Source: Desulfobacula sp.
GTDB lineage: Bacteria > Desulfobacterota > Desulfobacteria > Desulfobacterales > Desulfobacteraceae
NCBI RefSeq assembly: GCF_014237455.1
Contig: NZ_JABZFL010000041.1
Coordinates: forward strand, 1-64,000
Length of the DNA stretch: 64,000 bases
Direction: 5' to 3'
The number at the start of each line of letters is the position of its first letter. Within the stretch, counting starts at the first letter, position 1. Both the position numbers and the translations under genes were made by a program. The notes under the pieces were generated by a model. That model searched no databases. It had not been told where the DNA came from and saw nothing but the letters and a program-made list of their open reading frames with translations. Below are positions 1,559 to 35,961 of the stretch, piece after piece.

Positions 1559-1559
1559 C
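1375..1559 (-). pseudogene. Possible decayed coding fragment
   Basis: Directly after the MFS stop, one minus-strand frame reads as plausible protein interrupted by a single in-frame TAG. Its last residues are DILIMEGDSYRKKL. That ending loosely resembles the C-terminus of IstB-type transposition helper ATPases, where a GESYR-like motif is common, but the upstream part does not support it. This is a guess from a short match and may be chance. Confidence 0.2.
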
Positions 1560-4599: not shown

Positions 4600-4641
4600 A
4601 AAATGTGGTCCATAAGATTTTATACTATGAAATTTAAAATC

Positions 4642-10316: not shown

Positions 10317-10331
10317 CTCTCTTGTGTAGGC

Positions 10332-10395
10332 GGGGTCAGGCTTTCCTTATTGGCGTTATTGAGTACAACAACGCCAATAAGGAAAGCCTGACCCC
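10332..10395. repeat. REP-like perfect 26-bp inverted repeat
   Basis: The arms 10332-10357 and 10370-10395 are exactly complementary over 26 bases around a 12-base loop, with GGGGTCAGG at the outer ends. The GGGGTCAGG-ended palindrome resembles the repeats mobilised by Y1 (REP-associated, IS200-like) transposases, as I recall them. No transposase gene is in the window. It sits between the two moeA genes on the transcribed strand, so it forms a very stable RNA hairpin, but it lacks a T-run. Confidence 0.75.
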
Positions 10396-10412
10396 ATATG
10401 TTATACCATATG

Positions 10413-11639
10413 TTATAAAAGGATAATATCTACCATGGTATCTTTTTCCAGACCTTCAACATGATCGCCGATTTCAAGGAGTCCATCTGCATGAATCATG
10501 GTTCTGATCAATCCGGATTTGCCCAAAACCGGTTTTGCCAGCAGCAGGTTTCCCTTTTTTGCAAGCTCGACCCGGATAAAGTCCCTTCTGCCCTGTGCGG
10601 AGGATACATTCCGGGTCAATTTCGCGGGAATCCTGATCGTTCTGTCCCGGGTTTCAAGCCCTTTAAGCTTGTTTAAAAATGGTATGACCACAATTTTGAG
10701 GACCACCATGGCAGACACCACCTGGCCGGGTAGTCCCCATACGGGTTTCCTCCCGGACTTAGCAAGAATTGTCGGCTTCCCTGGGCTCACGGACATGCCG
10801 TGGACTAAAATATCTGTATCCGGTAAAGCCGATAAGACATCAATGGTAAAATCCCTTGTTCCCACAGAGCTTCCCCCGGAAATGAGCACCATGTCCGTTT
10901 CCTTGAGGGCTTTTGCAACGGCTTTTTTCAAGGCGGCAAGATCATCTTTGATAATACCGTAACAAACCGGTTTGGCATGAGCTTCCCTGATAAAGCCTGA
11001 CAGGGTATAAGAGTTGATATCCCGGATTTTACCGGGAACAGGTTCCTCTTCTATGGGAATGATTTCATCCCCGGTTGAAATGATGCCAACCTTTGGTATT
11101 TTATAGGTTTCAATTTGCGAAAACCCGAGTCCTGCTGCAAGGCCTTCTTCCTGTGGCCGGATAAAGGTCCCTTTGGATAAAACCGTCTCTTCTTTTGCAA
11201 AGTCTTCGGATGCATCAATCACATGCTGCAAAGGGGCCACACTTTTATAAATTTCAACGGAAGTGTCATCAATTAATTCTGTATGTTCCACCATGACCAC
11301 ACTGTCCGCCCCGTCAGGAAGCATTCCGCCGGTTGAAATTTTGACAGCCTGTCCGGACTGAAGAATAAAATCCGGAATGTCACCCATGAGAATGGTTCCT
11401 GCTATATCAAGCCAGGCAGGACTGAATTCAGATACACCGAATGTGGAACTCGCTACAACAGCGTATCCGTCCATGGTGGCCCTCTTGAATCCCGGCATAT
11501 CTTGTTTGGCAACCAGATCCCGGGCAAGGACCCTTGAGAAAGCTTCGGATACCAGTATTTTTTCAGATTCAACAGGAGAAAATTCTCCTGTCAATGCCAT
11601 CACCTCTTCAAGACTTTTCACCTTGAAAAAATAACTCAT
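10413..11639 (-). CDS. moeA: Molybdopterin molybdotransferase MoeA (plain form)
   Basis: A 408-aa MoeA. It has the N-terminal ATMDGYAV motif, then STGGMLPDGADSVVMVEH, the MoCF core SGGSSVGTRDFT and SVSPGKPTI, and the C-terminal beta-barrel domain. It catalyses metal insertion into molybdopterin-AMP. Its ATG overlaps the dapL stop by four bases (ATGA), so translation is coupled. Two MoeA-type genes in a row suggest a division of labour, for example tungsten versus molybdenum, or catalysis versus sensing in the PBP-bearing copy; this is inference. A bacterium rich in Mo/W enzymes is implied. Confidence 0.92.
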   Translation of the reverse strand: MSYFFKVKSLEEVMALTGEFSPVESEKILVSEAFSRVLARDLVAKQDMPGFKRATMDGYAVVASSTFGVSEFSPAWLDIAGTILMGDIPDFILQSGQAVKISTGGMLPDGADSVVMVEHTELIDDTSVEIYKSVAPLQHVIDASEDFAKEETVLSKGTFIRPQEEGLAAGLGFSQIETYKIPKVGIISTGDEIIPIEEEPVPGKIRDINSYTLSGFIREAHAKPVCYGIIKDDLAALKKAVAKALKETDMVLISGGSSVGTRDFTIDVLSALPDTDILVHGMSVSPGKPTILAKSGRKPVWGLPGQVVSAMVVLKIVVIPFLNKLKGLETRDRTIRIPAKLTRNVSSAQGRRDFIRVELAKKGNLLLAKPVLGKSGLIRTMIHADGLLEIGDHVEGLEKDTMVDIILL

Positions 11640-19794: not shown

Positions 19795-20460
19795 TCAGAT
19801 TCTAAACAGGGACAGAGGCGACGGGCAGAGCTCATCCATTATAGCCAAATCTTTGGCCGCACAATACCCCTTGGAAAGATATCCCTGTTCAAGTCCTTTC
19901 TGGGTAATGATCTGAAGATGAGTATGGTAAAACCAGTTCCCGTTTTCATGGAAATCCCCGATACAGGAGAAGGCTTCTCCGGGCCCAAAATTGGTACCGA
20001 TGACAGGAAGCTTTCCTTTGTTCAAATGGCCGTAAAAGCTGTAAAAAGTTTCAAAATATGGGCTTTCATGCATTAAAAGGACATGGCCACCGTAATTTCC
20101 TTCGCCCGCCTCATATCCGCTTTCCATGACCCTTGCATCCAAAGGGGCATGCAAGGGGGTTCCCAGAGGAACAATAATGTCAAGCCCCAGATGATAAAAC
20201 CGTTGTTCTTCAACCATCTGAGGGCATTGTGACAGGACAATTTCCCGGTTTTCAAGATAGGATGAAACGCCCCAACCGTATTGATCTTTCATCATGTCAT
20301 CCAGAAGCTTTTGAAACCCTTTTTGATCCCTGACATTAATGATATCAAAAAGGGGGGAGTCAACCGACATGTCTACTATCAGGGGATCACCCGCCAGATT
20401 TTTAAAAACAGGATGAATCTCAATCTTTTCACTGTAAGCAATATAGGGGTATCTCATCAT
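19795..20460 (-). CDS. M23-type (LytM-like) metallopeptidase-fold protein in the potB-kamA operon
   Basis: A 221-aa protein without a signal peptide. The M23 zinc motifs are present: HLGLD (H-x3-D) followed by IIVPLGTPLHAPLDARV, then FYGHL, then HTHLQ (H-x-H). M23 enzymes usually cut peptidoglycan in the periplasm; a cytosolic copy 12 bases behind a radical SAM gene is out of place. In some bacteria cytosolic M23-like domains are fused with aminotransferase and phosphotransferase domains (from memory), which points to small-molecule chemistry. I infer a role in processing the compound imported by the operon. Confidence 0.75.
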   Translation of the reverse strand: MMRYPYIAYSEKIEIHPVFKNLAGDPLIVDMSVDSPLFDIINVRDQKGFQKLLDDMMKDQYGWGVSSYLENREIVLSQCPQMVEEQRFYHLGLDIIVPLGTPLHAPLDARVMESGYEAGEGNYGGHVLLMHESPYFETFYSFYGHLNKGKLPVIGTNFGPGEAFSCIGDFHENGNWFYHTHLQIITQKGLEQGYLSKGYCAAKDLAIMDELCPSPLSLFRI

Positions 20461-20472
20461 TTTTATCTTTAC

Positions 20473-22938
20473 CTATGAAACAGGGAACCTGTTTGCTTTT
20501 ATGAGCCCCTGGATCGGCACCACAGGAGAGTTATCCTCTGTAGTAATTCCTTTTGGAAGCACAAAATTTTTATCCATGCCTTTATAATAGGATACGTCAT
20601 AACAGCCAAGCTTTATGTTTACCTGACCATTGTCGTGAACAAAAGATGACGTCAAACCATAATCCACCTCACCCAGCAACGTTGAAATAATATATCGCGG
20701 GATTTCCCTTCCAGATCCTTCTCTTCTGACTTTTGTGGCAATATCAATTACATCGTAGGAATCCACGGGATGGTCGATGTTCCAGTTTTGCTGAATGGGA
20801 AGCCCTGCGACATAGAGGTGATGAAATTCGATCCCTGCTTTTCGCACACTATAGGCAAGGGAATGGATGTGTTCATCAGAATCATTTACACCCCCTAAAA
20901 GGGCCGTGTTGCAATACACGGTTATTCCCTTGTTGTTCAGCCTTCTGGCAAGTTTTTCATGCTCATTTGTTATCTCATTGCCTAAGGTAAACCAGGTTTC
21001 GATTTCCAGCCTTAAGGGATTCACCACACGAAGCGTATTCAAATCCCCAAGAGTATTGATCACGGCCCTTGTATATGCTTCGGGTTCAGAGTTAAACTTC
21101 ATGCTGAACAGCCGGACAGCATTCACATGGGGAATATCCTTTAAATTTTTAATGAGTTGTTTAATGTAAAAAAGAGACTCTACGGCATCCGTTGATGAGG
21201 ATATGATCACATCACTAATCCTGTCATCTGATCTGATGTAATCGATCTCGCTTGCGGAAGCCCTGGCATCAATCTCAACCCTTGTTTCGTGGAGCCTCAA
21301 GAGTTTTTCAAAACCCGTGCCCACAATGGACGGCCCTATTTGCCTTTCATTGATTAATATGGATTTAAGTTTTTCAATATCATTTGTTGAAGCAGATGTT
21401 TTTTCTTTGACGACTCTTTTGGGACGGAGCCCATGAAGAAGAGATTCATCTCCGATCTGTGCCATATACTGAATATCAATGGTGCCCTCATCATTTACCC
21501 TTATATTGGTAAGCTCATTGGCAAGAGGGGCAAAGGCTTTAAAATAATCCGGTGTATAAGGGGTCCTGATCCAGACAAAATTTTCATTGTCTTTCACCTT
21601 TTCCACGGCCCATCCGCTGGTATACCAGTCCATTTTTCCTATGGGGGTTGCCGTGCAGATCCTAGGTATGACCCTGTCAGACAGGTGGGCACGAAGATGA
21701 TTGGCAATTCCTATCCCTTCTGACAGGGAGCTCCAGTAAATGCTGTTCCCGTGGATGGGGCTGCAGGGAATATAAATATAATGAAGTTCTGCGCCGGCCC
21801 CCCGCAACAGGCCAAAAAGTCTTACCAGTTCAGGGCCTTTGTCATTGCAGTCACTCAAAAACGGAGTCTGGATATACACGGCAATCCCATTGTTGACAAG
21901 ATCGGATATAATATCAAGGCTTTCAGGAGACACTTCATCCGGATGAATAAAATGAGTGGCCACTTCCATCCTTTTTCCGTGCTGCTGAAGTTCAAGGTTT
22001 TTTTGCTTAAAATATTTGAGATAAGCGGCTTCATTTTCAAGGAAAAGATCCGGATAATAAGCAATGGATCGTGTGGCAAGACGCAGCGTCTGAACATGGT
22101 CCACCTGCATAAGCCCGTCTATGGCAGCTGCCATATTGGCCCGGTTCATGAAGGGATCACCTCCGGTAACAACAATCTCTTTGATGGATGGAGAATCCTT
22201 TACATGCTGGACTGCTTTTTGAACACCCGGCACTGTCGGATTTTTTTCATTCCTGGAATCTTTATGTTTTCTGAAACAAAACCTGCAGTAAACCGGACAA
22301 CTCATGTTTAAGAGAAAGATGACCCTATTCTGGTACATCTGTTCCAGAAGGCCGTCATGGAACTGGCCAATCCAGGTGTTGGTATGACCGCCCGTATCCA
22401 GTTCTTCAATAAACGGCAAATACTGATAAGCCACATCCTTTGATACCAGCATCTGACGAATGGTATGGCGTGACAACCTTACCGGGTATGTTTCAATCAC
22501 CTGCTGGAGTCCGGCACGGTCCTTCTCAGGAACTTCAATATGAGTGGCTTTCTCAAGCTGATGGGTATCTTTAATGGAAATATATCCATGTCCCGGCAAG
22601 GCCTGCTCAAGGATGACCACAAGCATAAGATGAGGAATCTCAATCTGATTTACTCTTATTTTTTTCATTTCCCCATTAACAATAGCGGAGAAAATTTGGG
22701 TAAAAAACCCTTCCGGGTCATTGGGGTATCCTGCTTTTTCCAAAAGGTTTGAAAATTTGTGTACCCCATCGCCCTCTTTTGTGATCCTGCAGAATTGTTT
22801 TCCTGCAAGCGTTATCGTCCCATAGATATCAAAAAATTCAATCACGGTTTTTGTCAAAGCGGCAAGACCGACTTCTACTTTTTTCCCTGAATGCTTGAAC
22901 ACTATGTTTATTGAACGATCGTAACTTTCCATTTCCAT
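20473..22938 (-). CDS. Twin KamA-like radical SAM protein (lysine 2,3-aminomutase family)
   Basis: An 821-aa protein, twice the length of a lysine 2,3-aminomutase. The first barrel has the radical SAM cluster Cys214-x3-Cys218-x2-Cys221 (CPVYCRFC), VTGGDP at 258-262 and a family-like EVATHFIHPDE. The usual PGGGGK PLP lysine motif is absent; TPIGK (Lys435) lies at the corresponding place. From about residue 545 a second KamA-like barrel follows (EFHHLYVAGLP; RYIISTLLGEVDYG) without any CxxxCxxC and with Glu where Lys is expected. I infer migration or elimination of an amino group on a substrate other than lysine. ATG at 22938 or 22932; AAGGA precedes both. Confidence 0.85.
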   Translation of the reverse strand: MEMESYDRSINIVFKHSGKKVEVGLAALTKTVIEFFDIYGTITLAGKQFCRITKEGDGVHKFSNLLEKAGYPNDPEGFFTQIFSAIVNGEMKKIRVNQIEIPHLMLVVILEQALPGHGYISIKDTHQLEKATHIEVPEKDRAGLQQVIETYPVRLSRHTIRQMLVSKDVAYQYLPFIEELDTGGHTNTWIGQFHDGLLEQMYQNRVIFLLNMSCPVYCRFCFRKHKDSRNEKNPTVPGVQKAVQHVKDSPSIKEIVVTGGDPFMNRANMAAAIDGLMQVDHVQTLRLATRSIAYYPDLFLENEAAYLKYFKQKNLELQQHGKRMEVATHFIHPDEVSPESLDIISDLVNNGIAVYIQTPFLSDCNDKGPELVRLFGLLRGAGAELHYIYIPCSPIHGNSIYWSSLSEGIGIANHLRAHLSDRVIPRICTATPIGKMDWYTSGWAVEKVKDNENFVWIRTPYTPDYFKAFAPLANELTNIRVNDEGTIDIQYMAQIGDESLLHGLRPKRVVKEKTSASTNDIEKLKSILINERQIGPSIVGTGFEKLLRLHETRVEIDARASASEIDYIRSDDRISDVIISSSTDAVESLFYIKQLIKNLKDIPHVNAVRLFSMKFNSEPEAYTRAVINTLGDLNTLRVVNPLRLEIETWFTLGNEITNEHEKLARRLNNKGITVYCNTALLGGVNDSDEHIHSLAYSVRKAGIEFHHLYVAGLPIQQNWNIDHPVDSYDVIDIATKVRREGSGREIPRYIISTLLGEVDYGLTSSFVHDNGQVNIKLGCYDVSYYKGMDKNFVLPKGITTEDNSPVVPIQGLIKANRFPVS

Positions 22939-23021: not shown

Positions 23022-23357
23022 TCAATACAACCTCTTTTCTGCCTTGTACAAATAGTATACAGTATCTTTTGGAAATCCGTATCCCATAACTTTTCCCAAT
23101 GCTTCATCTTCATTTCCCGGATCAATTTGTATGACCAGGTATTCTTTTGAGTCTTTGGAATCATAAACCTTTTTCCAGGCATAATTTCCCTTTTTTAAAT
23201 ATTGATATGCGATAAGGGATTCGGAAAAAATAGAAAGAAGCTGTTTGGTTAAATCATTTTCAAAAATAATATAGCTCATTGAAGGATCAAGATGTTTCTT
23301 AATCCAGCCAAAACTTTTTCGGATCATTTCATGCCCTGAAAAATCTATCGTCATCAA
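23022..23357 (-). CDS. Unknown 111-aa protein between potA and kamA genes
   Basis: A small soluble protein with no recognised family, start MMTIDFSGHEMIRKSFGW. Secondary structure looks alpha/beta: an N-terminal helix, a SYIIFEN strand, a helix, and a C-terminal YLVIQIDPGNEDEAL strand-loop-helix. Its start overlaps the potA stop by four bases, and kamA follows after 83 bases, so it is certainly in the operon. An accessory or chaperone-like role for the radical SAM protein is conceivable but unsupported. Confidence 0.6.
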   Translation of the reverse strand: MMTIDFSGHEMIRKSFGWIKKHLDPSMSYIIFENDLTKQLLSIFSESLIAYQYLKKGNYAWKKVYDSKDSKEYLVIQIDPGNEDEALGKVMGYGFPKDTVYYLYKAEKRLY

Positions 23358-24457
23358 ATTTTAAGTAACCGGCAATGTTCATGCATAACTTTCATACACA
23401 CCTCATCACCCCGCCGATATGGAGATCGTTTGACAAAGTTTATTGCATGCAGCACAAGCTTGTTTTCAAGTTCTATAAAATAACTGACTTCTCCTCCCAT
23501 ATAACTGCGATCCACAATCTTTCCGAAAAAAACATTCTCCCCTTGTTCCGGAACATGGTCGGCTCTGTAACCCAGGTTAAATTTTTGCGCCCGGATTACC
23601 ATTTCCACCTTGTCCCCTTTGTTAAATGTTCCCGCCGGAATAGCAAGGCAGGTAGAGTTGTCTTCCAGGGTTACACTCAAACAATCGCCTTGTTGCTCAT
23701 TTACAACGGCATTGAGAAAATTGGAATGCCCTAGAAAATCTGCAACGAAATGGTTGACCGAGTTGTTATAAACCTCTTCAGGATCACCTTCCTGCTGAAC
23801 AAAACCGTCTTTCATAACCACAACTTTATCTGACATGGACAATGCCTCTCTCTGATCATGGGTAACAAAGATAGTGGTCACTCCCAAAGCCTGCTGGAGA
23901 TTGTCAATCTCTCTTCTCATATCTTCCCTTAAATTTTCATCAAGAGCAGATAAGGGTTCATCCATCAACAAAACATCCGGTTCAATAACAATGGCTCTTG
24001 CAAGGGCAATACGCTGTTGCTGGCCACCGGATAACTGGGATGGCATCCTGTTCCCGACTCCGGGAAGCCGGACTGTTTCCAGGGCTTTTTCAACTTTTTC
24101 TTTCATAATGGCTTTTGACGCACTCCTGTACTTGAGTCCAAACGCCACATTATCAAAAATGGTTTTATGGGGGAAAAGTGCATAGTTCTGAAAAATGATA
24201 CCCAGGTTTCTTTTGTGAATGGGTGTGTCATTAATCCGTTTACCCTTGATAAAAATATCACCATGGGTTGGTTCCTCCAAGCCTGCAAGCATTCGCAAAA
24301 GTGTTGTTTTGCCGCATCCAGAGGGACCCAGAAGTGTTACCAGAGACCCTTCTGGAATTTCAAGGTCCATCTTTTTAACTGCAACAACTTTGCCATACCG
24401 TTTTTCAATCCCGGTAAATTTTACAAATGCAGGGTCTTTTTCCTGTTTCAAAGCCAT
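23354..24457 (-). CDS. potA: ABC transporter ATP-binding subunit, spermidine/putrescine (PotA) type
   Basis: A 367-aa ATPase of an importer. It has Walker A GPSGCGKTT, Q-loop FQNYALFPH, signature LSGGQQQRIALARA, Walker B VLLMDEPLSALD and H-loop FVTHDQREAL. The C-terminal ~120 residues form a TOBE/OB regulatory domain. The group transports polyamines and related cationic or amino compounds; the real substrate here is undetermined. It follows the binding-protein gene across a hairpin and overlaps the next gene by four bases. Confidence 0.88.
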   Translation of the reverse strand: MALKQEKDPAFVKFTGIEKRYGKVVAVKKMDLEIPEGSLVTLLGPSGCGKTTLLRMLAGLEEPTHGDIFIKGKRINDTPIHKRNLGIIFQNYALFPHKTIFDNVAFGLKYRSASKAIMKEKVEKALETVRLPGVGNRMPSQLSGGQQQRIALARAIVIEPDVLLMDEPLSALDENLREDMRREIDNLQQALGVTTIFVTHDQREALSMSDKVVVMKDGFVQQEGDPEEVYNNSVNHFVADFLGHSNFLNAVVNEQQGDCLSVTLEDNSTCLAIPAGTFNKGDKVEMVIRAQKFNLGYRADHVPEQGENVFFGKIVDRSYMGGEVSYFIELENKLVLHAINFVKRSPYRRGDEVCMKVMHEHCRLLKI

Positions 24458-24547: not shown

Positions 24548-25708
24548 TTACTTGCCGGCCATAATCCTGTCCCATTTTTCAGCCCAGTCAAGTTGATGGG
24601 CATTCCAATATGCAGGATCTGCAAACTTATACCCCTCTAACTTGCCTGTAGGGTCAAATGCCGGTAATTTTTTGATTTCATCCGGCATGGCAACTTTTGT
24701 CGGGTCAAGACTTGGCGGATAGCCCATGCCTATGGAAACCGCTTTTATCGCCTCGGGTTCAAGCATAAAATTGAGTAGCTTTTGGGCCACGTCAAGGTCT
24801 GTCCCCTTAAGGACATACATGTATTCCATCCAGGAATAAGTACCTTCCGGTGCAAGATATCCAATTGGATGACCCTCTTTCTGCAATAATCCTACCCTGC
24901 CTGACCAGGCAACCGTTGCATAAATATCACCATTTCCCAGAAGACTCATCAGCTCAGAACCGGATGCCCAATATTTTTTAATCATGCCTCTTTGTTCTTT
25001 CAAAGCTGCAAAGACTGCTTTCTCGTCTTTGATAGCATTTGGGTCCTGTCCCGTATGAAGCGCTGCATACCACATGTTGGTGATGTGATCTCCCCCCCAT
25101 GATCCAAGTTTTCCATTAAGGCTCTTGTCGTATAATAAAGATGCACCAAGTTTTTCAGCTTTTTCCTTGGATATTTTATCCGTATTATAGGCAATACCTG
25201 TCTGACCTAAATCATAAGGCACTGCAGAAAGAGTTCCCTTGCTGATTCCTTTCAGGGTGTTCGTCATTTTGCTCATTACATTCTTGAGATTTGGTATTTT
25301 ACTTTCATCCAATTCAACACCAAACCCGAGATCTGTGTAGCGGGCATAATCATAAACAGCACTTAAATGGGCGATATTAAATTCTCCGCCGGGTGGATAA
25401 GAGGCTTTTACCTGTGTTAAAAATGCAGCCATTCCCGTAAATGCAGCATCAATCACTTTAACTCCAGTGGCTTTGGTAAAAGGATCAAAGGCAAATTTTC
25501 TTAATGCTTCAGAGGTTGACCCGCCCCAGGAATGTAAGGTAATTGATTTTGCAGCAAATGCGTTTTGTACAAGCCCAAAAGGACCGCCAATCAGTCCCAA
25601 TGCAGCGCCGGAAATGCCAAGAAATTTTACAAAATCACGTCTTGAAATGTTGCCTTGCTGATAACTTTCATAAACATCATCAAACTTTCTCTTCAAATCT
25701 TTTCCCAT
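24548..25708 (-). CDS. potD: Periplasmic binding protein of the Pot-type ABC importer (Tat-exported)
   Basis: A 386-aa extracellular solute-binding protein. The N-terminus carries a twin-arginine signal, SRRDFVKFLGISG at about residues 22-34, then a hydrophobic stretch ending NAFA, so it is probably exported folded by Tat. The mature part matches the PotD/PotF fold (ITLHSWGGSTSEALR; LSAVPYDLGQTGIAYN). It captures the substrate and hands it to PotB/PotC. SD is AAGGAG. The symbol reflects the family, not proven polyamine specificity. Confidence 0.85.
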   Translation of the reverse strand: MGKDLKRKFDDVYESYQQGNISRRDFVKFLGISGAALGLIGGPFGLVQNAFAAKSITLHSWGGSTSEALRKFAFDPFTKATGVKVIDAAFTGMAAFLTQVKASYPPGGEFNIAHLSAVYDYARYTDLGFGVELDESKIPNLKNVMSKMTNTLKGISKGTLSAVPYDLGQTGIAYNTDKISKEKAEKLGASLLYDKSLNGKLGSWGGDHITNMWYAALHTGQDPNAIKDEKAVFAALKEQRGMIKKYWASGSELMSLLGNGDIYATVAWSGRVGLLQKEGHPIGYLAPEGTYSWMEYMYVLKGTDLDVAQKLLNFMLEPEAIKAVSIGMGYPPSLDPTKVAMPDEIKKLPAFDPTGKLEGYKFADPAYWNAHQLDWAEKWDRIMAGK

Positions 25709-25777: not shown

Positions 25778-26578
25778 TTATTTTCCTGTTCCTTTTGCAA
25801 ACTTTCTTGAGATATATCCTGCAAGAAGAGGAGTCGAAACCGTCAGAACAATCATGACTGCACCAAGGGCGTTAATTTCAGGACTTATGGAATTTCGCAG
25901 CATACCGAATATTTTCACAGGAACGGTCTGGTTCTGTGCCGTGGCCCAGAAAAGCGTTGCTGTTACATCATCAAAGGAAATGGTAAAGGCGAACAGCATC
26001 CCCGCTAATATCGCAGGCGCCAGCAAGGGAAACGTAATTTCCCTGAATGTTTGAAATGGGTTTGCACCAAGGGATAATGCGGCTTCCTCATATTCCTTCT
26101 TAATTCCTACAAGCCTTGCCTGGACAATAAGAAGGACATAGGGCAGGGTTAAAACCACATGACCAATGAGCAGCAGGGCAAAACTCTTTGGTTGTTGCAG
26201 CCACCTGATAAATAACAATAAAGCAACCCCCAATACAACCTCCGGAATCATGATGGGCGCAATTAAAAGGGTGTTTAAAAATTCCTTGCCCCTAAACTCA
26301 TATCGAATAAACGCCATGGCGGCAGGCACGCCAAAAGCAGTGGCCAATACCGCTGTGCAGGACCCCAGCACCAGGGAATTTTTAAAAGCATCCAAAATAG
26401 TTGAATTATGCGAGAGCTTTACATACCACTTGAAACTGAACCCCTCCATTGGGAATGATCCAAACTGTTGGGGATTGAATGAGAGAATGACAACGGCAAT
26501 AATCGGGGTAAACATCCAGACATAAACCAGGAATGTAAATATTTTTATCAATGACCATCCTGAAATAAATTTTTTCAT
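25778..26578 (-). CDS. potC: ABC importer permease, PotC type
   Basis: A 266-aa inner-membrane permease with six predicted helices. It has the EAA loop that docks the ATPase (EYEEAALSLGANPFQTFREITFP) and the family-typical MEGFSFKWY near the N-terminus. It pairs with PotB to form the channel. It follows potB after 12 bases and precedes potD by 69 bases. Confidence 0.88.
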   Translation of the reverse strand: MKKFISGWSLIKIFTFLVYVWMFTPIIAVVILSFNPQQFGSFPMEGFSFKWYVKLSHNSTILDAFKNSLVLGSCTAVLATAFGVPAAMAFIRYEFRGKEFLNTLLIAPIMIPEVVLGVALLLFIRWLQQPKSFALLLIGHVVLTLPYVLLIVQARLVGIKKEYEEAALSLGANPFQTFREITFPLLAPAILAGMLFAFTISFDDVTATLFWATAQNQTVPVKIFGMLRNSISPEINALGAVMIVLTVSTPLLAGYISRKFAKGTGK

Positions 26579-26590
26579 ATTTCTTACCTG

Positions 26591-27460
26591 TTACGATTCA
26601 TTGCTTAAAGTTTTAAATATCTGGTTGATCCCCATATACCGGTTGTAGGTGTAGACAATGACCATCAAAAGCAACATCAGAATAGTACTGATAGCCGAAC
26701 CAAACGGCCAGTCAAGGGTTCCGATTATCCGCTTGAAGATCAGGTTTGCAATCATTTCATTTCCGGGACCGCCTAGAATCATCGGGGGAAGGTATGTCCC
26801 GCAGGTCAACACGAAAACAAGCAGGCACCCGGCACTCACCCCGGGCAGGCTTAAAGGAAGTGTCACCTCTTTGAACGCTTGCCATTCTGTGCATCCAAGA
26901 CTTTTTGCCGCTTCAGCCAGGCTTTTATCAATGCCGTCAAGACTGACGTAAATATTTAAAATCATGAAAGGCAGAAGGTATTGTAAAAGGCCCATGATGA
27001 CGGCCCCTTCGTTATACAGCATGGCCAAAGGAGTGGAGATGATATTATACTTCAGCAGAAGGTGATTGATCAACCCGGAATCTCCCAGGATGTTTATCCA
27101 GCTTAAGGTCCGGATGATAAAGCTGATCCAGAATGGCAGCATGACCAGTATCATGAGAAAGGGTTTGAACCGGGATTCCGTCTTATAAAAAAAGTATGCT
27201 GGGATGTAGCCCAGGATCAGGCATAAAATAACCGTTTCAAGGGCAACACGAAGTGTATTTAAAAGGATGGACGGATAAAAAAAATCTGCAAAAAATTTAG
27301 CATAATTACCAAATTGAAAGGCCGGTATATCCTGCCCGCTTGGGGCTCTGAGCCAAAAACTATATACAACCACAAAACAGATAGGGATAACCAAAAGGAG
27401 AAAGACGGCTGTCAAAGAGGGGGATAATAAAATCCAGGGCTTCCAAGATTTATTTTTCAT
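26591..27460 (-). CDS. potB: ABC importer permease, PotB type
   Basis: A 289-aa permease with six predicted helices and the EAA loop LAEAAKSLGCTEWQAFKEV. It is the first gene of the operon. SD AGGA lies seven bases before ATG. Upstream, about 65 bases from the ATG, is a sigma-54 promoter, so the whole run potB-potC-potD-potA-(111 aa)-kamA-like-M23 should be transcribed on activation by the adjacent PAS/AAA+ regulator. Confidence 0.88.
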   Translation of the reverse strand: MKNKSWKPWILLSPSLTAVFLLLVIPICFVVVYSFWLRAPSGQDIPAFQFGNYAKFFADFFYPSILLNTLRVALETVILCLILGYIPAYFFYKTESRFKPFLMILVMLPFWISFIIRTLSWINILGDSGLINHLLLKYNIISTPLAMLYNEGAVIMGLLQYLLPFMILNIYVSLDGIDKSLAEAAKSLGCTEWQAFKEVTLPLSLPGVSAGCLLVFVLTCGTYLPPMILGGPGNEMIANLIFKRIIGTLDWPFGSAISTILMLLLMVIVYTYNRYMGINQIFKTLSNES

Positions 27461-27523: not shown

Positions 27524-27540
27524 TTGCAATTCTTGTACCA
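27524..27540 (-). promoter_or_regulatory. Sigma-54 promoter for potB
   Basis: Read on the minus strand the sequence is TGGTACAAGAATTGCAA. It fits TGGCAC-N5-TTGCA with exactly ten bases between GG and GC. Transcription would start near 27514, leaving a leader of about 55 bases. The neighbouring activator gene encodes a sigma-54-contacting AAA+ domain. Confidence 0.8.
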
Positions 27541-27770: not shown

Positions 27771-29177
27771 TTATTTTGTTGTAATACTAATCCCATGCTT
27801 TTTAAATTTTCTGACCACAGAGGGCTGACTGATCCCCAAAAATCCGGCAGCTTCCCGGGTGGTACGGCATTTCATCGCTGCCTGCACCAACATTTCCTTT
27901 TCAACCGCCCGAATCTTATCCGCCAGACTGCTGTTTTCTTCCATTGGCTGCGCTTTTATTCCAAAGGGCTTGGTCTTGCTTAATGCTTTTACCAGGTAAT
28001 CATCCAGAGACCGTCTGTCACACATGACAATGGCCTGCTTAATGATATTGACCAATTCCCGGACATTCCCCGGGAAATCATAGGTTTGAAGCTTGTCAAA
28101 GGCCTTGTAACCGATCCTTGCTCTGCGATTGTACTGCTTGTTATATTTTTTAAGGGTGATTCGAACCAGTTCAAAAATATCCTCAGGCCGGTTTCTCAAT
28201 GGCGGGATCAAAAGTGTAAAAGTATTAAGCCGATGAAAAAGATCCAGCCTGAACTTCTTATTGAATGTCCGGGTGTCAAGGTCCCGGTTGGTGGCGGCAA
28301 TAATCGAGCAGTCTATTTTTTTGGGGGTAATACCGCCAATGGGCATAATTTCGTGATCATCCAGATACTTCAACAGCTTGGCCTGTACCCCAATGGACAT
28401 TTCCCCGATTTCATCAAGGAAAAGCGTCCCCCCGGATGCCAATTCAAACAATCCAATCTTCCCCTTTTCACTGGCTCCGGTAAACGCTCCCTTTGTATAT
28501 CCAAACAGTTCAGCCTCTAGAAGGTTTTCAGGCAGAGCCGCACAATTGATCTGAATAAACGGCATTTTACTGCCGGCCCTGTGTTTGTGAATGAATTTTG
28601 CCAGCAACCCTTTGCCTGTCCCGGATTCTCCCTGGATCAGAATATTGGAAGCGTTAATGGCAGATAGTTTCAAGGCCAGTCGAAGTGTCTGCTTCATTGA
28701 ATCGCTCTGGGCCACGATATTGTTCTCTTTTAATTCAAGCAGGGTCAACTCGGTCAGTTCATCTTTTATCTTTTCAGACTCCTGCCTTACAAGTGCAAGC
28801 TGTTTTCTCATGCCTTCGATAAGAGAAATATCCCGTTCATTTACAACAACAAAAGACAGATTATGGTGATCATCAAAAACCGGGGTTCCTGTCACCAGTA
28901 AAGTGTATTCTGACCGTGGTGTCGTCTGAATTACACTGACCTGGCGTTTTGTTTCAAGGACTTCCTGGGTGGCTGACCTGTCAATCTGCCCTTCTTTTAC
29001 AAGAGTTCTAACATCTTTTCCCAACACCTCGGATGCCTTTACCCCGTTTAAGATTTCAGCCGCCTTATTAAGCTTTAGAATTTTCCCTTCAGCATCACAA
29101 ATCATCAAACCATCAGCCGATCGATTAAAAATCGTCTCAAGATATGTCATGATCATCTGTGATGAATTATCTTTCAT
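27771..29177 (-). CDS. PAS-domain sigma-54-dependent transcriptional activator
   Basis: A 468-aa bacterial enhancer-binding protein. It has an N-terminal PAS domain (about 10-115), a short coiled segment, then an AAA+ domain with Walker [14 protein letters not shown], the sigma-54-contacting GAFTGA loop and Walker [13 protein letters not shown] Fis-type HTH ends the protein ([20 protein letters not shown]). There is no receiver domain, so the signal is probably a ligand or redox state sensed by PAS. The frame opens upstream, but ATG at 29177 has GGAAGA seven bases before it. It overlaps the amidohydrolase stop by 11 bases. Its probable targets are the palindromes just downstream. Confidence 0.88.
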
Positions 29178-30777
29178 GGACAATTCTTCCATCAAAAAGG
29201 GTTATATCGACTTTTGTATCTGCGATCCCATCAGGATCAATCTTAAAGATATCCTGGTCAAGAACGATCATATCCGCAAGCTTGCCTTTCGAAATGGACC
29301 CCAATTGATCGCCTGTTCCTGATGCCGCAGCAGGGGTAATCGTATACCCTTTTACCGCCTCTTCAACACTGAGTGCCTGCTCCATATACCATCCCTGTTC
29401 CGGGGTCTTATTCATTCTTTTTCTTGTAACAGCAGAATAAATCCCTGCCAGAGGATTGGGGTCTGCCACAGGGGCATCAGAACTGAGCATCAGGGGAACA
29501 CCTGTTTTTAAAATACTTTTCAGGGTATAGGCATACTTTCCCCTAAGCCCTGCACAGGAATCAATCATGGAAATATCAAGACTTAAATTGTTGGGCTGGC
29601 AGGAGACAGCCATGTTTTTCAACGCTGAAAGTTTTTCAAGATCTTCAGGCAGAACCATCTGGACATGCTCGATTCGATGGGGAATTATACACCGGGTCAG
29701 TGCTTTGCTTTCAATCCTCTGGAACATGGCTATAATTTCTTTGTTGGCCCGATCACCAACAGCATGCACCATAACGCTTAGTCCAGCCTGATCGGCTTTT
29801 AACACAGCCCTTTCAATATCCGCAACCGAGGTCAGGGCCATGCCAAATCCCGCATCAAGATATTTTTTGGTCATCCAGCCGGTCCTTGCGCCCATGCCGC
29901 CATCGGAAAAAAACTTTAAATAACCGATCTTTAAGAGATCATCCCCAAACCCTGTACAAATCCCTAAATCAATGGCCTGGTCTGTCATTTCCCCGGGAAG
30001 AGCCACATGACAACGAATATGAAGCCTGTTTTCCCGATGAAGCTGTTGCCATGCCTTTAACGCATCTGCGCCGTCAAGTCCTCCCATGAGCCGGATATCA
30101 TGAATGGATGTAAGTCCAAGTTTATGGGCATCACCTACGGCTTTTTGCATATTTTCAAGCACGGTTGCCCGGGAAGGTTCGGGCAGGACATTCCTGATCA
30201 GGTTTGAGGCAAGCTCCTTTAGAACACCTGTGGGACGGCCGGATGCATCCTTTGCAATCACACCGTCTTTGGGATCAGGGGTTTCAGAATCGATTTTGGC
30301 AAGCCTTAAGCCAAGAGAATTGGCAACAGACAAATGAAGGTCACATCTCCAGATACAGACCGGGTTATTGGGTGCAATCCTGTCAAGATCATACCGATCC
30401 GGTATTTTATTTTCAGGCCAGTCCGATTCATTAAACCCCTGGCCCAACACCCAGTTACCAATGCTCGCGGCCAGGGCCTTCTTTGAAACAGCGTTTTCCA
30501 TTTCCTTAAACGAGCCGACCCGTGAAAAATCGATACTGTCATAGTTCAACGCCCACTCATAAAAATGAAAGTGGGTATCAATAAATCCCGGTAATACCAA
30601 TCTGTTATCAAGATCAATCACTTGTGTGTGGTTTGAAGCCAACCCCAAGATATCCCTGTCAGACCCGATACTTAAAATCCTCTTGCCTGATATGGCAACG
30701 GCCCGGGCCTTTGGATGAAAATCATCCTGGGTTTGAATATTGCCATTATGCAAAATAATGTCTGCCACTGTTTTCAT
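29167..30777 (-). CDS. Amidohydrolase, YtcJ/AepA-like
   Basis: A 536-aa metal-dependent hydrolase of the amidohydrolase superfamily. It has the strand-1 metal motif GFIDTHFHF, a histidine in MVHAVGDRAN, HRIEHVQ, and the C-terminal aspartate in LSSDAPVADPNPL. The family hydrolyses amide or formamide bonds on small molecules; the substrate is unknown. It is translationally coupled at both ends: TAATG with the upstream racemase-like gene and an 11-base overlap with the regulator. Co-regulation with the racemase suggests a shared substrate class, for example N-acylated amino acids. Confidence 0.85.
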   Translation of the reverse strand: MKTVADIILHNGNIQTQDDFHPKARAVAISGKRILSIGSDRDILGLASNHTQVIDLDNRLVLPGFIDTHFHFYEWALNYDSIDFSRVGSFKEMENAVSKKALAASIGNWVLGQGFNESDWPENKIPDRYDLDRIAPNNPVCIWRCDLHLSVANSLGLRLAKIDSETPDPKDGVIAKDASGRPTGVLKELASNLIRNVLPEPSRATVLENMQKAVGDAHKLGLTSIHDIRLMGGLDGADALKAWQQLHRENRLHIRCHVALPGEMTDQAIDLGICTGFGDDLLKIGYLKFFSDGGMGARTGWMTKKYLDAGFGMALTSVADIERAVLKADQAGLSVMVHAVGDRANKEIIAMFQRIESKALTRCIIPHRIEHVQMVLPEDLEKLSALKNMAVSCQPNNLSLDISMIDSCAGLRGKYAYTLKSILKTGVPLMLSSDAPVADPNPLAGIYSAVTRKRMNKTPEQGWYMEQALSVEEAVKGYTITPAAASGTGDQLGSISKGKLADMIVLDQDIFKIDPDGIADTKVDITLFDGRIVHER

Positions 30778-31814
30778 TACATGATAAATCCTTGTTGAAA
30801 GGGATCTTTTTCTTCAACAATAAAATGATGAACACCGGTTAAGTAAGCCATGCCTTTAATCTGCACAATAAACCCGTCCACAGGCCCGATTTTTTCCTTT
30901 TTTACAAGCATGGCCTCAAACGACGTACCCAAAGGACTGTGATTGATATATCTCTGATTCATTTTAATTTTCCCATAATGATGAAGAAGCGTCAGTTTTG
31001 CAGCCGTGCCCGTGCCGCAGGGAGACCGGTCTGCATGGGATTCCCCGTAAATGACCATGCCTTTGCCAAAGGCGTTGCCCTCATCGTATTGCGAATCATA
31101 AAATTCTGTGACATCAATGGTTCTGACATCCAGTCTGACAGGATGAGATACGGTAAGCTGTTCATTGGCAGCATCAATAATCTTCATGCCCAGATCCGTT
31201 AAAAATTCCTTATTTTCCAAAACCGGCTCCATTCGAATTTGACGTGAATCGACCATGGCAAAAAAACCGCCTGTACAGACAAGATCCACTTTTATCGTTC
31301 CAAATCCTTCAACCTTAATCTCTTGACCTGTAGCATAAACAAAGGAAGGCACCATATTGATGGCCACAGCATCGAGCGTATCTTCTTGAACAAACACTCT
31401 GGCCTCCATCAGCCCTGACGGGGTATCCACAAGCACAGAATTTTCCCCCTGTTCAAGCACAAGGAAACCTGCTCTTGCAAGGGTTGCCACAGCACCAATG
31501 GTTGCATGCCCGCAAAGATAGGGATATCGTTTGGCATCCATGTATATCAGTCCGAACTTTGCATTAGGAGTGACATTCCCGGTCACAAGAGCTGCCAGAA
31601 TCTTGGGACCCCTGGGTTCTTTTGTCAAAAGACACCGGATATGATCATATCGGGATTTAAACCATTCAAGCTTATCCATCATGGTTTTTCCTTTGATGTC
31701 CTCCAAACCATTGATGATCAGACGCGTGGATTCCCCTTCAGTATGGGAATCAATGGTTGTAATGCATTTATCAAACCCCTTTGAAAAATTTGAAAAATCA
31801 TTAAAAAATTCCAT
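30777..31814 (-). CDS. Proline racemase / 4-hydroxyproline 2-epimerase family enzyme
   Basis: A 345-aa PLP-independent epimerase. Both catalytic cysteines are present, Cys101 in YLCGHATIG and Cys266 in SPCGTGTAAKL (numbered from 31814). This argues for a racemase or epimerase, not the trans-3-hydroxyproline dehydratases that carry Thr at the second position. The frame extends to 31844, but ATG at 31814 follows AAGGA while the first ATG has no SD. The amidohydrolase begins in the stop codon (TAATG). Proline, hydroxyproline or a related imino acid is the likely substrate. Confidence 0.85.
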   Translation of the reverse strand: MEFFNDFSNFSKGFDKCITTIDSHTEGESTRLIINGLEDIKGKTMMDKLEWFKSRYDHIRCLLTKEPRGPKILAALVTGNVTPNAKFGLIYMDAKRYPYLCGHATIGAVATLARAGFLVLEQGENSVLVDTPSGLMEARVFVQEDTLDAVAINMVPSFVYATGQEIKVEGFGTIKVDLVCTGGFFAMVDSRQIRMEPVLENKEFLTDLGMKIIDAANEQLTVSHPVRLDVRTIDVTEFYDSQYDEGNAFGKGMVIYGESHADRSPCGTGTAAKLTLLHHYGKIKMNQRYINHSPLGTSFEAMLVKKEKIGPVDGFIVQIKGMAYLTGVHHFIVEEKDPFQQGFIM

Positions 31815-31968
31815 TAGAAAAAGATCCTTAGAAAAAGGCTGCATAATATTTACAATAAAGAACTTTCTTTAACTTAAACCAATTAGTTTTATTATTCAAA
31901 CATAAGGTTTTATTCTTTAAAAAATATCCACCAAAAATATTTACTTATCACAGACAAACTGGAATAAT

Positions 31969-32003: not shown

Positions 32004-32951
32004 ATGTTTAACAGAATCATCAAGGCCCGGAAGAGATTAGAGGGCTATGCCAATATAACACCCACTATGACATCCGGGACATTGAACAACCTTGTGGGTG
32101 CCGATGTTCATTTAAAGTGTGAAAATTTTCAAAAAATGGGTGCGTTTAAGTTTCGGGGTGCGTTTAACAGTATTTCAAAGCTCTCCGCCGAAGAAAAATC
32201 AAACGGAGTCATTACCTATTCATCCGGGAACCATGCCCAGGCTGTGGCCCTGGTGGGAAAGATGCTCAATGTTAAAACAACCATTGTCATGCCCGGTAAC
32301 GCCCCTGCCATAAAGCTTGCCGCAACAAAAGGCTATGGCGGCAATGTAATTGAATATGACCCTCAAACCCAAAGCCGGGAAGATATTGCGTTAAAAATCC
32401 AGGAGGAACAAGGGCTGACAATGATCCCTCCATTTGACCATCTGGATGTCATCGCTGGTCAGGGAACCGCTGTTTTGGAATTATTTGACCAGGCAGCAGG
32501 CCCCCTTGATATGCTGTTAACCCCCTGTGGCGGCGGAAGGCTTTTAAGTGGCAGTGCCATTGCTGCAAAGGGTGTGAATCCTGACTGCACCGTTATTGGC
32601 GTAGAACCGGAACTTGCAGATGATGCCTGCAGGTCGTTTAAAACCGGGACCCTTCACACGGTGAAAAATCCCGCTACCATTGCCGACGGTACAAGAACCT
32701 CGTCCTTAGGAAAAATCACCTTCCCCCTAGTATTGGAACATGTTGACGATATGGTAGCGGTTTCGGAAAAAGATATTATCCATGCGGTACAATTTCTATT
32801 CTTTCGAATGAAGCTTGTAGTAGAGCCCTCTGGTGTCCTTGGCCTTGCAGCCCTTTTCAGCAAAAAGATTGCGCCCCGAAAAAAGACCGGGATTATTTTA
32901 AGCGGGGGAAATATTGATGCGAAAACCATGGGCTTTATCATGAATCAATGA
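32004..32951 (+). CDS. PLP-dependent threonine/serine dehydratase-family ammonia-lyase
   Basis: A 315-aa fold-type II PLP enzyme. The Schiff-base lysine is Lys49 in GAFKFRGA, the substrate loop is SSGNHAQ (73-79) and the phosphate-binding glycine loop is CGGGRL (175-180). It lacks the C-terminal ACT domain of biosynthetic IlvA, so it is a catabolic type: threonine or serine dehydratase, threo-3-hydroxyaspartate lyase or serine racemase. It diverges from the racemase-amidohydrolase-regulator unit and is a good candidate partner in amino-acid breakdown. Its last 14 bases overlap the convergent gene. Confidence 0.85.
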   Translation: MFNRIIKARKRLEGYANITPTMTSGTLNNLVGADVHLKCENFQKMGAFKFRGAFNSISKLSAEEKSNGVITYSSGNHAQAVALVGKMLNVKTTIVMPGNAPAIKLAATKGYGGNVIEYDPQTQSREDIALKIQEEQGLTMIPPFDHLDVIAGQGTAVLELFDQAAGPLDMLLTPCGGGRLLSGSAIAAKGVNPDCTVIGVEPELADDACRSFKTGTLHTVKNPATIADGTRTSSLGKITFPLVLEHVDDMVAVSEKDIIHAVQFLFFRMKLVVEPSGVLGLAALFSKKIAPRKKTGIILSGGNIDAKTMGFIMNQ

Positions 32952-35900
32952 CCGGGATGTCATTCATTGTGTCATCCGGCTCATCGTTTTTATAGGGCAT
33001 CAATACTGCCAGTGATGTCTTCCCATCCACCAGAATTTTTATAGGGTTTTCAAATTTTATATGTTTTAGATACTTTGTTGTGTTTTCACAGGCCTGGCAC
33101 CTGAAAAATTCATAATCAATAAAATCATCTCCCTTATCTGATATGGTAATATAACTGATACCAAGGGAAGTGATATTCTGGAAAAAGTGGGATCCCTGGG
33201 AAGGGTCGGCCTTAATGCTTTCAATGGTGGTTTCCAGCATCACCCCCACATTTGAGATATCATTCCAGACCACGGGAATCCCCAGCCACCGGTCTGATGA
33301 TCCCCACCGGCCAGGTCCAATCAAAACGTATTTTCTGTTATTTTCATTAAACAGGGCATTGATTTTGTTTATTTCTGCAGCTATTTCAATTGTTTTTCCA
33401 GAATCAAAGGTTTCAGGGTCCACATACACCACATCATAGATATCCTTATATTCACCATTTCCCAGTGACAGCGTAGAATAACAAAAAGCCTCCTTAATTT
33501 CTTTTTTTCCTATTTTAACCCTGAGATTTTGTTTATACCGCCCCATGGGCCTGATTTGAAGTAACGAGAATTGAGGGTTCCGACTCTTATCCTCCGGTAA
33601 ATTAACTGCAAATTCGACTTCAACAGAAGACCCCATCCATTTGCTGCCGATTCTGGTGACCTCTTCAAGAAGTTGGGCCAAGGGAAAAGAATTGTATTTT
33701 AAAATATTGGCAAAGGTTAATACGGGAAAGCCTTTATTGGAAAAAGAATCCCTGATCCTGTTATCCTGGACATAAAAGGTGGAGGATAAAAACCTGACAA
33801 TCGGATGATCGGTTGCATCACTTAAATCAAGTTTTGCAAGGGTTGAGTCTTCAGTGGAGCCGGATATAAATTTATCGGCGTCCGGAAATTCGTCGAGTTT
33901 CAGCGCATAAAAATATTTTTGGGAATTTTCAAGGATATCATCTACAATAGAAAACTGGGGTAAGAACTGGGGATATTTAGGGCAGAATCTTAAGGTCTTA
34001 CCGCCTTCCATGACAATCTTTCCAAGCCCCATGGCAATATAGGAAATACCCTCTTCTGCCTTTAAATGGGAGATGGGATAAAAATTATAGGACTGGGCCA
34101 CGCCTGAAACTGTAGGATAAAAAAAGTTTTTATGGACCGTACCGGTCAATTGCTGGAGAATTACAGCCATTTCCTCATCTTCGGTTCGATGCATGGTTGA
34201 TTTTGCATAGGATCTTGGCGCTTTGAGGTAGGTAGAGGCATATACCAGCTTAACTGCTATAATCAGCCGTTCAAGCCGTTTTTCAAGATTTGGATGTGAA
34301 TTGGGGAGCATATAGGTATTATAAAGTCCGGCAAATGGTTGATAATGCGCATCTTCAAAAAGAGAGGAGGACCGGACGGCAATGGGATATCTGACACTCT
34401 GTAAATAGGTTTGCAGGCTTTTCTTCAACCAGTCAGGAAACCTGGCTTGAAGGAATTGCTCAACAATCTGATCGTCTTCCAGTTTCTCATCAGATTCAAG
34501 AAACGTTGCCAGTTCATTTTCCTCGATAAATGTTTTAAACCCTTCCGTTGAAATCACAAAGGTCTGGGGGATACTAATGTCCACGTCCGGAAACATATCA
34601 CGCAAAGAAGAATCCCGCCTTATCTGGGATGCCATAAAAGCCAGTCCCCTGGCCTTTCCGCCAAGAGACCCGTTCCCGATTTTCATAAAATCCGTATCTG
34701 AATCAAACTTTTCAGAATCAAAATCAATGATCTGCCCCTGTCTTGATCCCTTCCGCCTGGCATGAATACTCTCAACTAAAAATTTCTTCATATCCTGAGG
34801 GTCTAGAAAGTCACTGATCTTATAAGGCTTGAGCTTAAGTGCAAAATTAATTTCACTTCTGGCCATGAACCATCTTGAAAAATCATCGTTCATGGCATGA
34901 TAGACAATGGATTCATCGGGAATTTCGGGCAGCAGTTTTTCAATGGCCCTTAAATCACTGGCCCTGGCAATCTCCTCCCCATTGGGCAGCCGGAAAACAA
35001 AGGCACCAAACCCGAGATATGATACAAAAAAATTCTTAATCCGGTCATTTAACGTACTTGAATTCTTATTAATAAAGACCGCCGGGATATCCACCACCTT
35101 TTCCTTATTACGATCCTCTGTACTCAGAATCAATACCGGCAGATCCGGAATTTCCTTTTTAATCTTTGTGAGAAGCTTATATCCTGCAGATTCATCCTCC
35201 ACTCCGTTTCTGGGATACCGCATATCTGAAAAGACTGACAACAGGTATGGTTTATACTTTTCATAAAGGGCAATGGCCTCTTCATAATTATGGGCAACCA
35301 ATACTTTGGGCCGGCCCCGCATTTTTAACAGCCGGTGTTCTTCATTAATGGAGTCCTCGATAACAGACTGGGTCTGCATCACAATCTGTTTGTAAAGCAC
35401 CGGTAAAAAAGAAGAATAATGATAGGGTGAATCCTCCACCAGAATAATCACCCTGACGTTGGCATTCTTGGTATCAAAGGCAACATTCATTTCATCTTCA
35501 AAATTCTTGATAATCGCCAGCAAAAGGTCTGCATTCCCCCCCCAGATGTATGTCCGGTCAATAGCCGTTGAATGATTCACGCTAATATATTTATCAATAT
35601 CGCAGGTATTATGCAGCAGCATGAAAAAGGGCAGGTCGGAATATTTTGCCTTTACTTGTTCGCCAAAGGAATATACATCCATTCCATCCAGGCTCGGCAT
35701 GGCAAGAATCAAATCGAATCTCTTGCTTTCCAGCATCCCAAATGCCTCTAATGCCGAAGACACCCATGTAAGTCTCGGGGGCTTTGAAAGGTTAAGCCCT
35801 TTGTACTCATTAATAATCCTTGTTGAAAGGCGGCCTTCCTCCTCCATGATAAATGCATCGTACGGGCAGGATACCAGGAGGATGTCACCCACCTTGTTGG

Positions 35901-35961
35901 CCATTAATTCATGATATATTTTAAGCGTCGGTGCTTTGGTCGAACTATAGAGAGTGTCCAT
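32938..35961 (-). CDS. Receiver-domain plus PEP/pyruvate-binding-domain protein
   Basis: A 1007-aa protein. The N-terminal ~330 residues contain two receiver-like domains; the second shows VILVEDSPYHYSSF, VFSDMRYP and LPVLILSTED. After a linker comes a PPDK_N-type ATP/PEP-binding domain (about 430-780) with GSLGGKARGLAFM and AVRSSSLFEDA. It ends with LIGPGRWGSSDRWLG. The phosphohistidine swivel and PEP barrel of real PEP synthase are missing, so it is not a PEP synthase. A phosphotransfer signalling role is inferred. ATG at 35961 has AAAGG nine bases before it; the open frame reaches 35979 only with TTG. Confidence 0.8.
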   Translation of the reverse strand: MDTLYSSTKAPTLKIYHELMANKVGDILLVSCPYDAFIMEEEGRLSTRIINEYKGLNLSKPPRLTWVSSALEAFGMLESKRFDLILAMPSLDGMDVYSFGEQVKAKYSDLPFFMLLHNTCDIDKYISVNHSTAIDRTYIWGGNADLLLAIIKNFEDEMNVAFDTKNANVRVIILVEDSPYHYSSFLPVLYKQIVMQTQSVIEDSINEEHRLLKMRGRPKVLVAHNYEEAIALYEKYKPYLLSVFSDMRYPRNGVEDESAGYKLLTKIKKEIPDLPVLILSTEDRNKEKVVDIPAVFINKNSSTLNDRIKNFFVSYLGFGAFVFRLPNGEEIARASDLRAIEKLLPEIPDESIVYHAMNDDFSRWFMARSEINFALKLKPYKISDFLDPQDMKKFLVESIHARRKGSRQGQIIDFDSEKFDSDTDFMKIGNGSLGGKARGLAFMASQIRRDSSLRDMFPDVDISIPQTFVISTEGFKTFIEENELATFLESDEKLEDDQIVEQFLQARFPDWLKKSLQTYLQSVRYPIAVRSSSLFEDAHYQPFAGLYNTYMLPNSHPNLEKRLERLIIAVKLVYASTYLKAPRSYAKSTMHRTEDEEMAVILQQLTGTVHKNFFYPTVSGVAQSYNFYPISHLKAEEGISYIAMGLGKIVMEGGKTLRFCPKYPQFLPQFSIVDDILENSQKYFYALKLDEFPDADKFISGSTEDSTLAKLDLSDATDHPIVRFLSSTFYVQDNRIRDSFSNKGFPVLTFANILKYNSFPLAQLLEEVTRIGSKWMGSSVEVEFAVNLPEDKSRNPQFSLLQIRPMGRYKQNLRVKIGKKEIKEAFCYSTLSLGNGEYKDIYDVVYVDPETFDSGKTIEIAAEINKINALFNENNRKYVLIGPGRWGSSDRWLGIPVVWNDISNVGVMLETTIESIKADPSQGSHFFQNITSLGISYITISDKGDDFIDYEFFRCQACENTTKYLKHIKFENPIKILVDGKTSLAVLMPYKNDEPDDTMNDIPVIDS

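Follow-up and report, generated by a model that had tools for sequence, protein, structure and literature searches.

The 64,000-nucleotide window analysed here, from a contig of a Desulfobacula sp. (NZ_JABZFL010000041.1), contains a minus-strand gene at 20473-22938 that starts with ATG and encodes an 821-residue protein with two KamA-like halves, hereafter the twin KamA protein. NCBIfam KamA models matched two stretches of the protein, and a genome search found a single matching locus. An extra N-terminal segment (residues ~1-111; 22606..22938) precedes the part resembling lysine 2,3-aminomutase (LAM). The first half (residues ~112-514; 21397..22605) comprises a KamA-like radical-SAM barrel (~195-470) and a tail, and the second half (residues 515-821; 20476..21396) comprises a KamA barrel without the cluster (strands ~546-757) and a tail; these features and the motifs below all lie on the minus strand. 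A first-pass annotation made from the sequence alone had described the [4Fe-4S]/SAM cluster motif CPVYCRFC, with Cys214, Cys218 and Cys221, and a TGGDP motif in the first barrel. Both were found at the places it gave (residues 214-221, 22276..22299, and residues 258-262, 22153..22167, respectively), the latter corresponding to the SAM-binding GG(D/E)P. It had also read a KamA C-terminal pattern in the second half, where EFHHLYVAGLP at residues 704-714 and RYIISTLLGEVDYG at residues 748-761 are indeed present, and had noted that this half lacks CxxxCxxC, which is true of the ORF and of 71/71 second halves of the family. As annotated, PGGGGK is missing from both halves, and the first half carries TPIGK with Lys435, the candidate PLP lysine (within TATPIGK, residues 429-435, 21634..21654). 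The codon at 20668..20670 encodes Glu757, the residue of the second half whose position matches Lys435.

Gene neighbourhood and distribution

The twin gene lies near the end of a series of minus-strand genes, which begins with a proline-racemase-family protein (30777..31844) containing both catalytic cysteine motifs (LCGHATIG and SPCGTGT), an amidohydrolase (Amidohydro_3, YtcJ-like; 29167..30777) and a PrdR-related PAS/sigma-54 activator (27771..29195). A candidate sigma-54-type promoter, TGGTACAAGAATTGCA (27525..27540, minus strand), is located between the activator gene and an importer operon, 64 bp before the permease gene. The operon encodes an ABC importer with PotB-like (26591..27460) and PotC-like (25778..26578) permeases, a PotD-like solute-binding protein with a Tat signal (24548..25708) and a PotA-like ATPase (23354..24457). 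These are followed by a 111-residue protein without a family match (23022..23357), which is conserved immediately before the twin gene at ~26 loci, the twin gene itself and, about 12 bp after it, a gene for an M23-like protein of 221 residues (19795..20460). The M23-like protein has HxxxD and HxH but no evident signal peptide, and in NCBIfam it best matches a part of the larger fusion model PRK06148; this suggests a cytoplasmic role involving a small molecule. Two other minus-strand regions of the window were noted in passing: two adjacent MoeA-type genes of molybdopterin biosynthesis at 8358-11639, one of them fused to a PBP-like substrate-binding domain, and, at 32938-35979, a protein of 1013 residues that has a PPDK_N nucleotide-binding domain and weakly matches response regulators.

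Much of this neighbourhood recurs in relatives. Among 35 ortholog loci with enough flanking sequence, the importer ATPase was found in at least 31, the amidohydrolase in at least 27, the M23-like protein in at least 24 and the racemase in at least 14, all lower bounds given the short flanks. A site of the TGG(C/T)A(C/T)-N5-TTG type precedes the first permease gene by 37-102 bp in many relatives. In another group of loci, the same genes are divergent from the twin gene and are accompanied by an IclR regulator. A racemase of the same family is a stable member of the cluster, as in the gene clusters of proline racemases and 4-hydroxyproline epimerases, but the survey of those clusters makes no mention of radical-SAM, aminomutase or amidohydrolase neighbours, nor of the twin cluster (PMC4113996). 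A search with TIGR03261 did not indicate the substrate of the importer. In two loci (L068 and L084), a polar-amino-acid importer (SBP_bac_3), for which the best curated models were cystine- and Lys/Arg/Orn-binding proteins, takes the place of the Pot-type importer. This replacement suggests that the imported compound is an amino acid. By eye, one twin cluster (L089) also contains an ornithine-aminotransferase-like gene, and genes for MttB-family corrinoid methyltransferases are found in the same cluster (2-5991) and at the end of another (L091); these neighbours are possible hints of a methylated or proline/ornithine-type substrate.

An ortholog (roughly at least 50% identity) was present in 62/193 genomes of relatives, the closest named relatives being Desulfobacula and other Desulfobacteraceae. 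A public genome collection yielded 74 twin loci, nearly all from Desulfobacterota; two outliers bear the titles Sphaerochaetaceae and 'Bacterium UASB270'. A search of a plasmid collection for the twin gave no matches. A second, distant group of twins (40-47% identity) keeps both halves, often stops near residue 766 and has different gene surroundings. Because 89 distinct near-full-length homologues keep the architecture, it is neither a chance product nor an assembly fusion, as judged from the sequences. Cys214, Cys218, Cys221, Arg219, Arg223, Gly260, Pro262, Ala430, Gly434 and Lys435 are invariant in all 89. Selenocysteine was considered for three divergent relatives with one in-frame TGA and was rejected: the TGA is a plain gene end in two of them (L113 and L123) and similarity ends there in the third (L117), so no selenocysteine is indicated. 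A frame of 3165 residues in one genome (G042) proved to be masked N sequence. The KamA search also listed many KamA frames of about 600 residues, and a 797-residue frame (L136) appeared by eye to join an ordinary KamA to an ATP-grasp ligase.

The first half and its likely chemistry

The first half retains the features of a radical-SAM enzyme and, probably, those for PLP. Like the lysine 2,3-aminomutase KamA/AblA (Clostridium subterminale, PDB 2A5H; TIGR03820), it contains CxxxCxxC, GGDP, the arginine for the substrate carboxylate and a candidate PLP lysine. The first-pass annotation had made much depend on the conservation of Lys435, and this residue was found in 89/89 sequences. The loop that replaces PGGGGK, TPxGK, is two residues shorter, and it is not unique to the twin, since DTPYGK occurs in two ordinary KamAs of our sample. 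Tyr202, Arg205 and Arg223 are also kept. On this sequence evidence, the first half is very probably a PLP-dependent 2,3-aminomutase, which would move an alpha-amino group to the beta carbon. Cys214, Cys218 and Cys221 would hold the [4Fe-4S] cluster and GG(D/E)P would bind SAM, with Arg223 placed for the substrate carboxylate and Lys435 placed to hold PLP.

The twin nevertheless differs from LAM at the positions expected to define the substrate. Two aspartates, present at both positions in the ordinary KamAs sampled, recognise the side-chain amine of lysine in LAM; in the twin, one is S/H393 and the other, an active-site aspartate (for this position see also PMC9850924), is Ala430 in 89/89 sequences. 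Because the active-site aspartate of LAM is alanine in every relative, the twin is not an AblA equivalog. The changes at the two lysine-recognising positions lead us to expect a substrate that lacks the terminal amine of lysine or is bound differently. In the mechanism we propose, lysine in its usual binding mode is probably not the substrate, the aspartate located between PLP and SAM in LAM being the invariant alanine; the substrate would more probably be another amino acid, which the importer, racemase and amidohydrolase encoded nearby would bring in or process. When LAM was converted into an alanine 2,3-aminomutase, the decisive substitution replaced the aspartate at the position of Ala430 by glycine or histidine (PMC9850924).

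The twin missed all curated KamA cut-offs, scoring 160.8 bits against 199.2 for the KamA subfamily model TIGR00238 and 161.2 against 525.4 bits for the AblA equivalog model TIGR03820. It scored 147.5 against a cut-off of 650 in the comparison with glutamate and arginine 2,3-aminomutases (TIGR04368, TIGR04468), which differ from it in having a single barrel, although a relative of theirs has a short DTPYGK loop. By these scores, the twin is a KamA-family relative beyond the curated limit of TIGR00238. Sixty-nine columns hardly vary among the sampled ordinary KamAs, and the first half retains only 29 of them. Together with the missed cut-offs and the changes at both putative lysine side-chain aspartates, this would suit a radical-SAM enzyme catalysing a reaction other than PLP-dependent aminomutation. 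We regard such a reaction as unlikely, however, given the invariant Lys435, the retention of Tyr202, Arg205 and Arg223 and the recurrent pairing with AblB, in some genomes without another detectable KamA.

AblB, the beta-lysine N-acetyltransferase (TIGR03827, matched above its cut-off), is encoded directly upstream of the twin gene or within its cluster in a number of relatives (L063/G494, L068/G153, L078/G160, L079/G176, L083/G155, L084, L094/G498, L098/G490, G101, G113 and G140; paired L and G names apparently denote one genome under two handles). Across the 193 relatives, the twin was present in 16/19 genomes with AblB and in 46/174 without it (Fisher p 1.2e-6, not corrected for descent). 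Three AblB-containing genomes (G113, G140 and G006) had the twin as the only KamA protein found, and a canonical AblA above its cut-off was detected in only 1 of 14 twin-bearing genomes tested (G490/L098). In that genome (Desulfonatronum; L098, 7997-14449), a canonical AblA-AblB pair lies two genes downstream of the twin gene, and a single cluster thus holds aminomutases of both kinds. The known AblA-AblB pathway produces N-epsilon-acetyl-beta-lysine in methanogens and Pelobacter (PMC3543383). In twin relatives, the twin seems to replace AblA, and an importer, a racemase, an amidohydrolase and an aminotransferase are added. The simplest reading of this gene association is that the twin supplies a beta-amino acid that is acetylated by AblB, and in many relatives the beta-amino product would probably be handed to this AblB-type N-acetyltransferase. 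The acetylation step would not be general, because AblB was not found in the genome to which the window belongs.

Origin and conservation of the second half

The first-pass annotation held that the C-terminal half should adopt a KamA-like barrel, and this is what was predicted. An AlphaFold model of the second half alone had a pLDDT of 94.1 and a pTM of 0.91. Its best match among solved structures was LAM (Z 19.6 over 240 residues, 3.4 A, 24% identity), followed by RlmN (Z 11.7). In profile searches, the isolated second half matched NCBIfam KamA models with E-values of 2.4e-16 to 4.8e-10, the best models being the glutamate and arginine 2,3-aminomutases named above, and 69/71 second halves of the family matched KamA models. 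Residues 565-786 aligned to residues ~246-470 of the family's first halves with 24-26% identity (E ~1e-10 in a small database). The twin has a LAM-like predicted fold in both halves at double the length of LAM.

The second half has lost the parts of this fold that serve catalysis. It lacks the N-terminal domain as well as the cluster, and the cluster loop is missing from the alignment, in which its '...LLRLHET' faces '...CPVYCRFCFRKHK' of the first half. The second half also has no GGDP loop, Gln357 of the first half is replaced by Asn677 (70/71), and the position of the PLP lysine is occupied by Glu or Asp in 70/70 sequences with a residue there. Arg548, the counterpart of Arg223, is kept in 70/71 second halves, and further conserved polar residues are Glu645, Glu647, Asn677, His707, Gln716, Arg744 and Glu757. 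When we searched 297 genomes of the phylum with a second-half profile for a stand-alone KamA without a cluster, the readable best matches other than twins all carried CxxxCxxC. In pairs with the gene of the window, the first barrel had a dN/dS of 0.03-0.07 and the second barrel one of 0.08-0.14; the N-terminal segment, the least constrained part of the protein, had 0.17-0.32. For the second barrel, a value of 0.29 was obtained in a further pair of relatives. By these ratios, the second half is maintained by purifying selection, and since they are low in both halves, the dead half must be kept for a function. The proposal that one half became a pseudo-enzyme thus gains from three observations: the cluster and Lys435 are invariant in the first half, they are lost in all second halves, and both halves are under purifying selection.

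In trees of 133 and of 76 barrels, first halves, second halves and other KamAs were each set apart by a branch, with supports in one of the trees of 95/92, 100/100 and 100/99, respectively. Seven residues occur in both halves but in none of 59 other KamAs (the pairs H225/H550, E325/E645, Y355/Y675, R379/R699, R422/R744, T431/T753 and Y465/Y784), compared with four positions common to second halves and other KamAs and not first halves. A second-half profile gave its own first half 109.7 bits and the best other KamA 86.6 bits. The tree and the seven shared-derived residues support a single, old internal duplication, as the sequences are read here, and the predicted fold is in line with the same proposal in the first-pass annotation. 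The duplication is older than the split of the twin groups, because both groups have both halves. The fusion of two different KamA genes would be a different origin for the same architecture. The KamAs used for comparison belong to the same phylum, some branches were flagged as long, and the three sequence groups leave the tree unrooted, all of which leaves room for a fusion. Forced grouping of the second half or the first halves with the closest-scoring ordinary KamAs was rejected, however (AU p 0.0255 and 0.008, respectively), and the seven shared-derived residues and the best match of the second half to its own first half also speak for duplication. We therefore consider a fusion highly improbable.

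Arrangement and role of the two halves

The full-length AlphaFold model had a pLDDT of 91.7 and a pTM of 0.93, and the relative placing of the halves is therefore predicted with confidence. Its closest solved structure was LAM, which aligned to this model with Z 30.7 over 336 residues (2.5 A) between model residues 106 and 813, a range that gives only the first and last aligned residues. The extension of the range into the second half is a hint from the model that the halves may interlock.

The reading that we judge probable, with real room for doubt, is that the twin is an active 2,3-aminomutase to which a pseudo-subunit is tethered; the single chain would be a pseudo-dimer whose halves both descend from one ancestor of the KamA type. 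The second half would be the same barrel, from which the loops for the cluster and GGDP and the PLP lysine have been lost, and would stay permanently attached as a partner. It would shape the active half or control it, acting either as a scaffold that replaces the partner subunit of KamA or as a ligand-sensing half. These two roles are sharper versions of the same explanation. As a scaffold, the second half would stand in, without a ligand and in the same chain, for the partner subunit of the KamA oligomer. This agrees with the tetrameric state of LAM (PMC9850924), with the fixed arrangement implied by the pTM of the full model and with the reach of the LAM alignment into the second half. The alignment range gives end points only, however, and such a strict set of polar residues would not be expected of a pure scaffold; we see this role as quite possible, at somewhat less than an even chance. 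As a sensor, the emptied barrel would use conserved polar residues (Glu645, Glu647, Asn677, His707, Gln716, Arg744 and Glu757) to bind the substrate, the product or another metabolite and would switch the active half allosterically. The many invariant polar residues kept, none of them needed for radical chemistry, the universal Glu/Asp at the former position of the PLP lysine and the purifying selection are consistent with this, but Glu645, Tyr675 and Arg744 are common to the first half and may be mere core residues, and no ligand is known. A sensory role is accordingly on the unlikely side.

The conserved Glu, His, Asn, Gln and Arg residues could also belong to a second enzyme, in which the barrel performs chemistry independent of a cluster on an intermediate that a neighbouring enzyme could deliver. 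This is very doubtful, because the best family and fold matches of the second half are radical-SAM barrels, KamA first, and the cofactor-binding residues of the fold are lost. The tethered pseudo-subunit remains our preferred reading. A more specific proposal, which we put forward as speculative and rather improbable, is that the cluster-less sister barrel is an intramolecular metabolite sensor, whose emptied active site would bind a metabolite of the pathway and gate the radical chemistry of the live half. The enzyme would belong to an anaerobic route not yet described, which would run from the import of an amino acid or derivative, through racemisation or opening, to a beta-amino acid, possibly acetylated.

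Other enzyme classes offer well-known cases of pseudo-enzyme partners, and Dph1-Dph2 has paired paralogous subunits with unequal roles, an analogy to the twin in the way it works only. Dph1-Dph2 is a radical-SAM-type heterodimer of paralogous subunits (PMC10669111), and unlike the twin it consists of separate chains, with a different fold and chemistry. A literature search for tandem or pseudo radical-SAM/KamA proteins returned nothing relevant; we found no description of a pseudo-enzyme partner fused inside a radical-SAM enzyme in the searchable literature, nor of an amino-acid uptake and conversion cluster that holds the twin. The interpretation in the first-pass annotation stands with the support described above, and the gene context and the AblB link are additions to it.

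If the dead half controls the live half, the twin would represent radical-SAM chemistry with a tethered allosteric subunit, and truncating the protein would be a simple way to dissect it. The change that occurs naturally at the specificity position of LAM resembles the one in engineered LAM that gave alanine 2,3-aminomutase activity (PMC9850924). Furthermore, the gene context points to an unassigned beta-amino-acid pathway in many sulfate-reducing Desulfobacterota.
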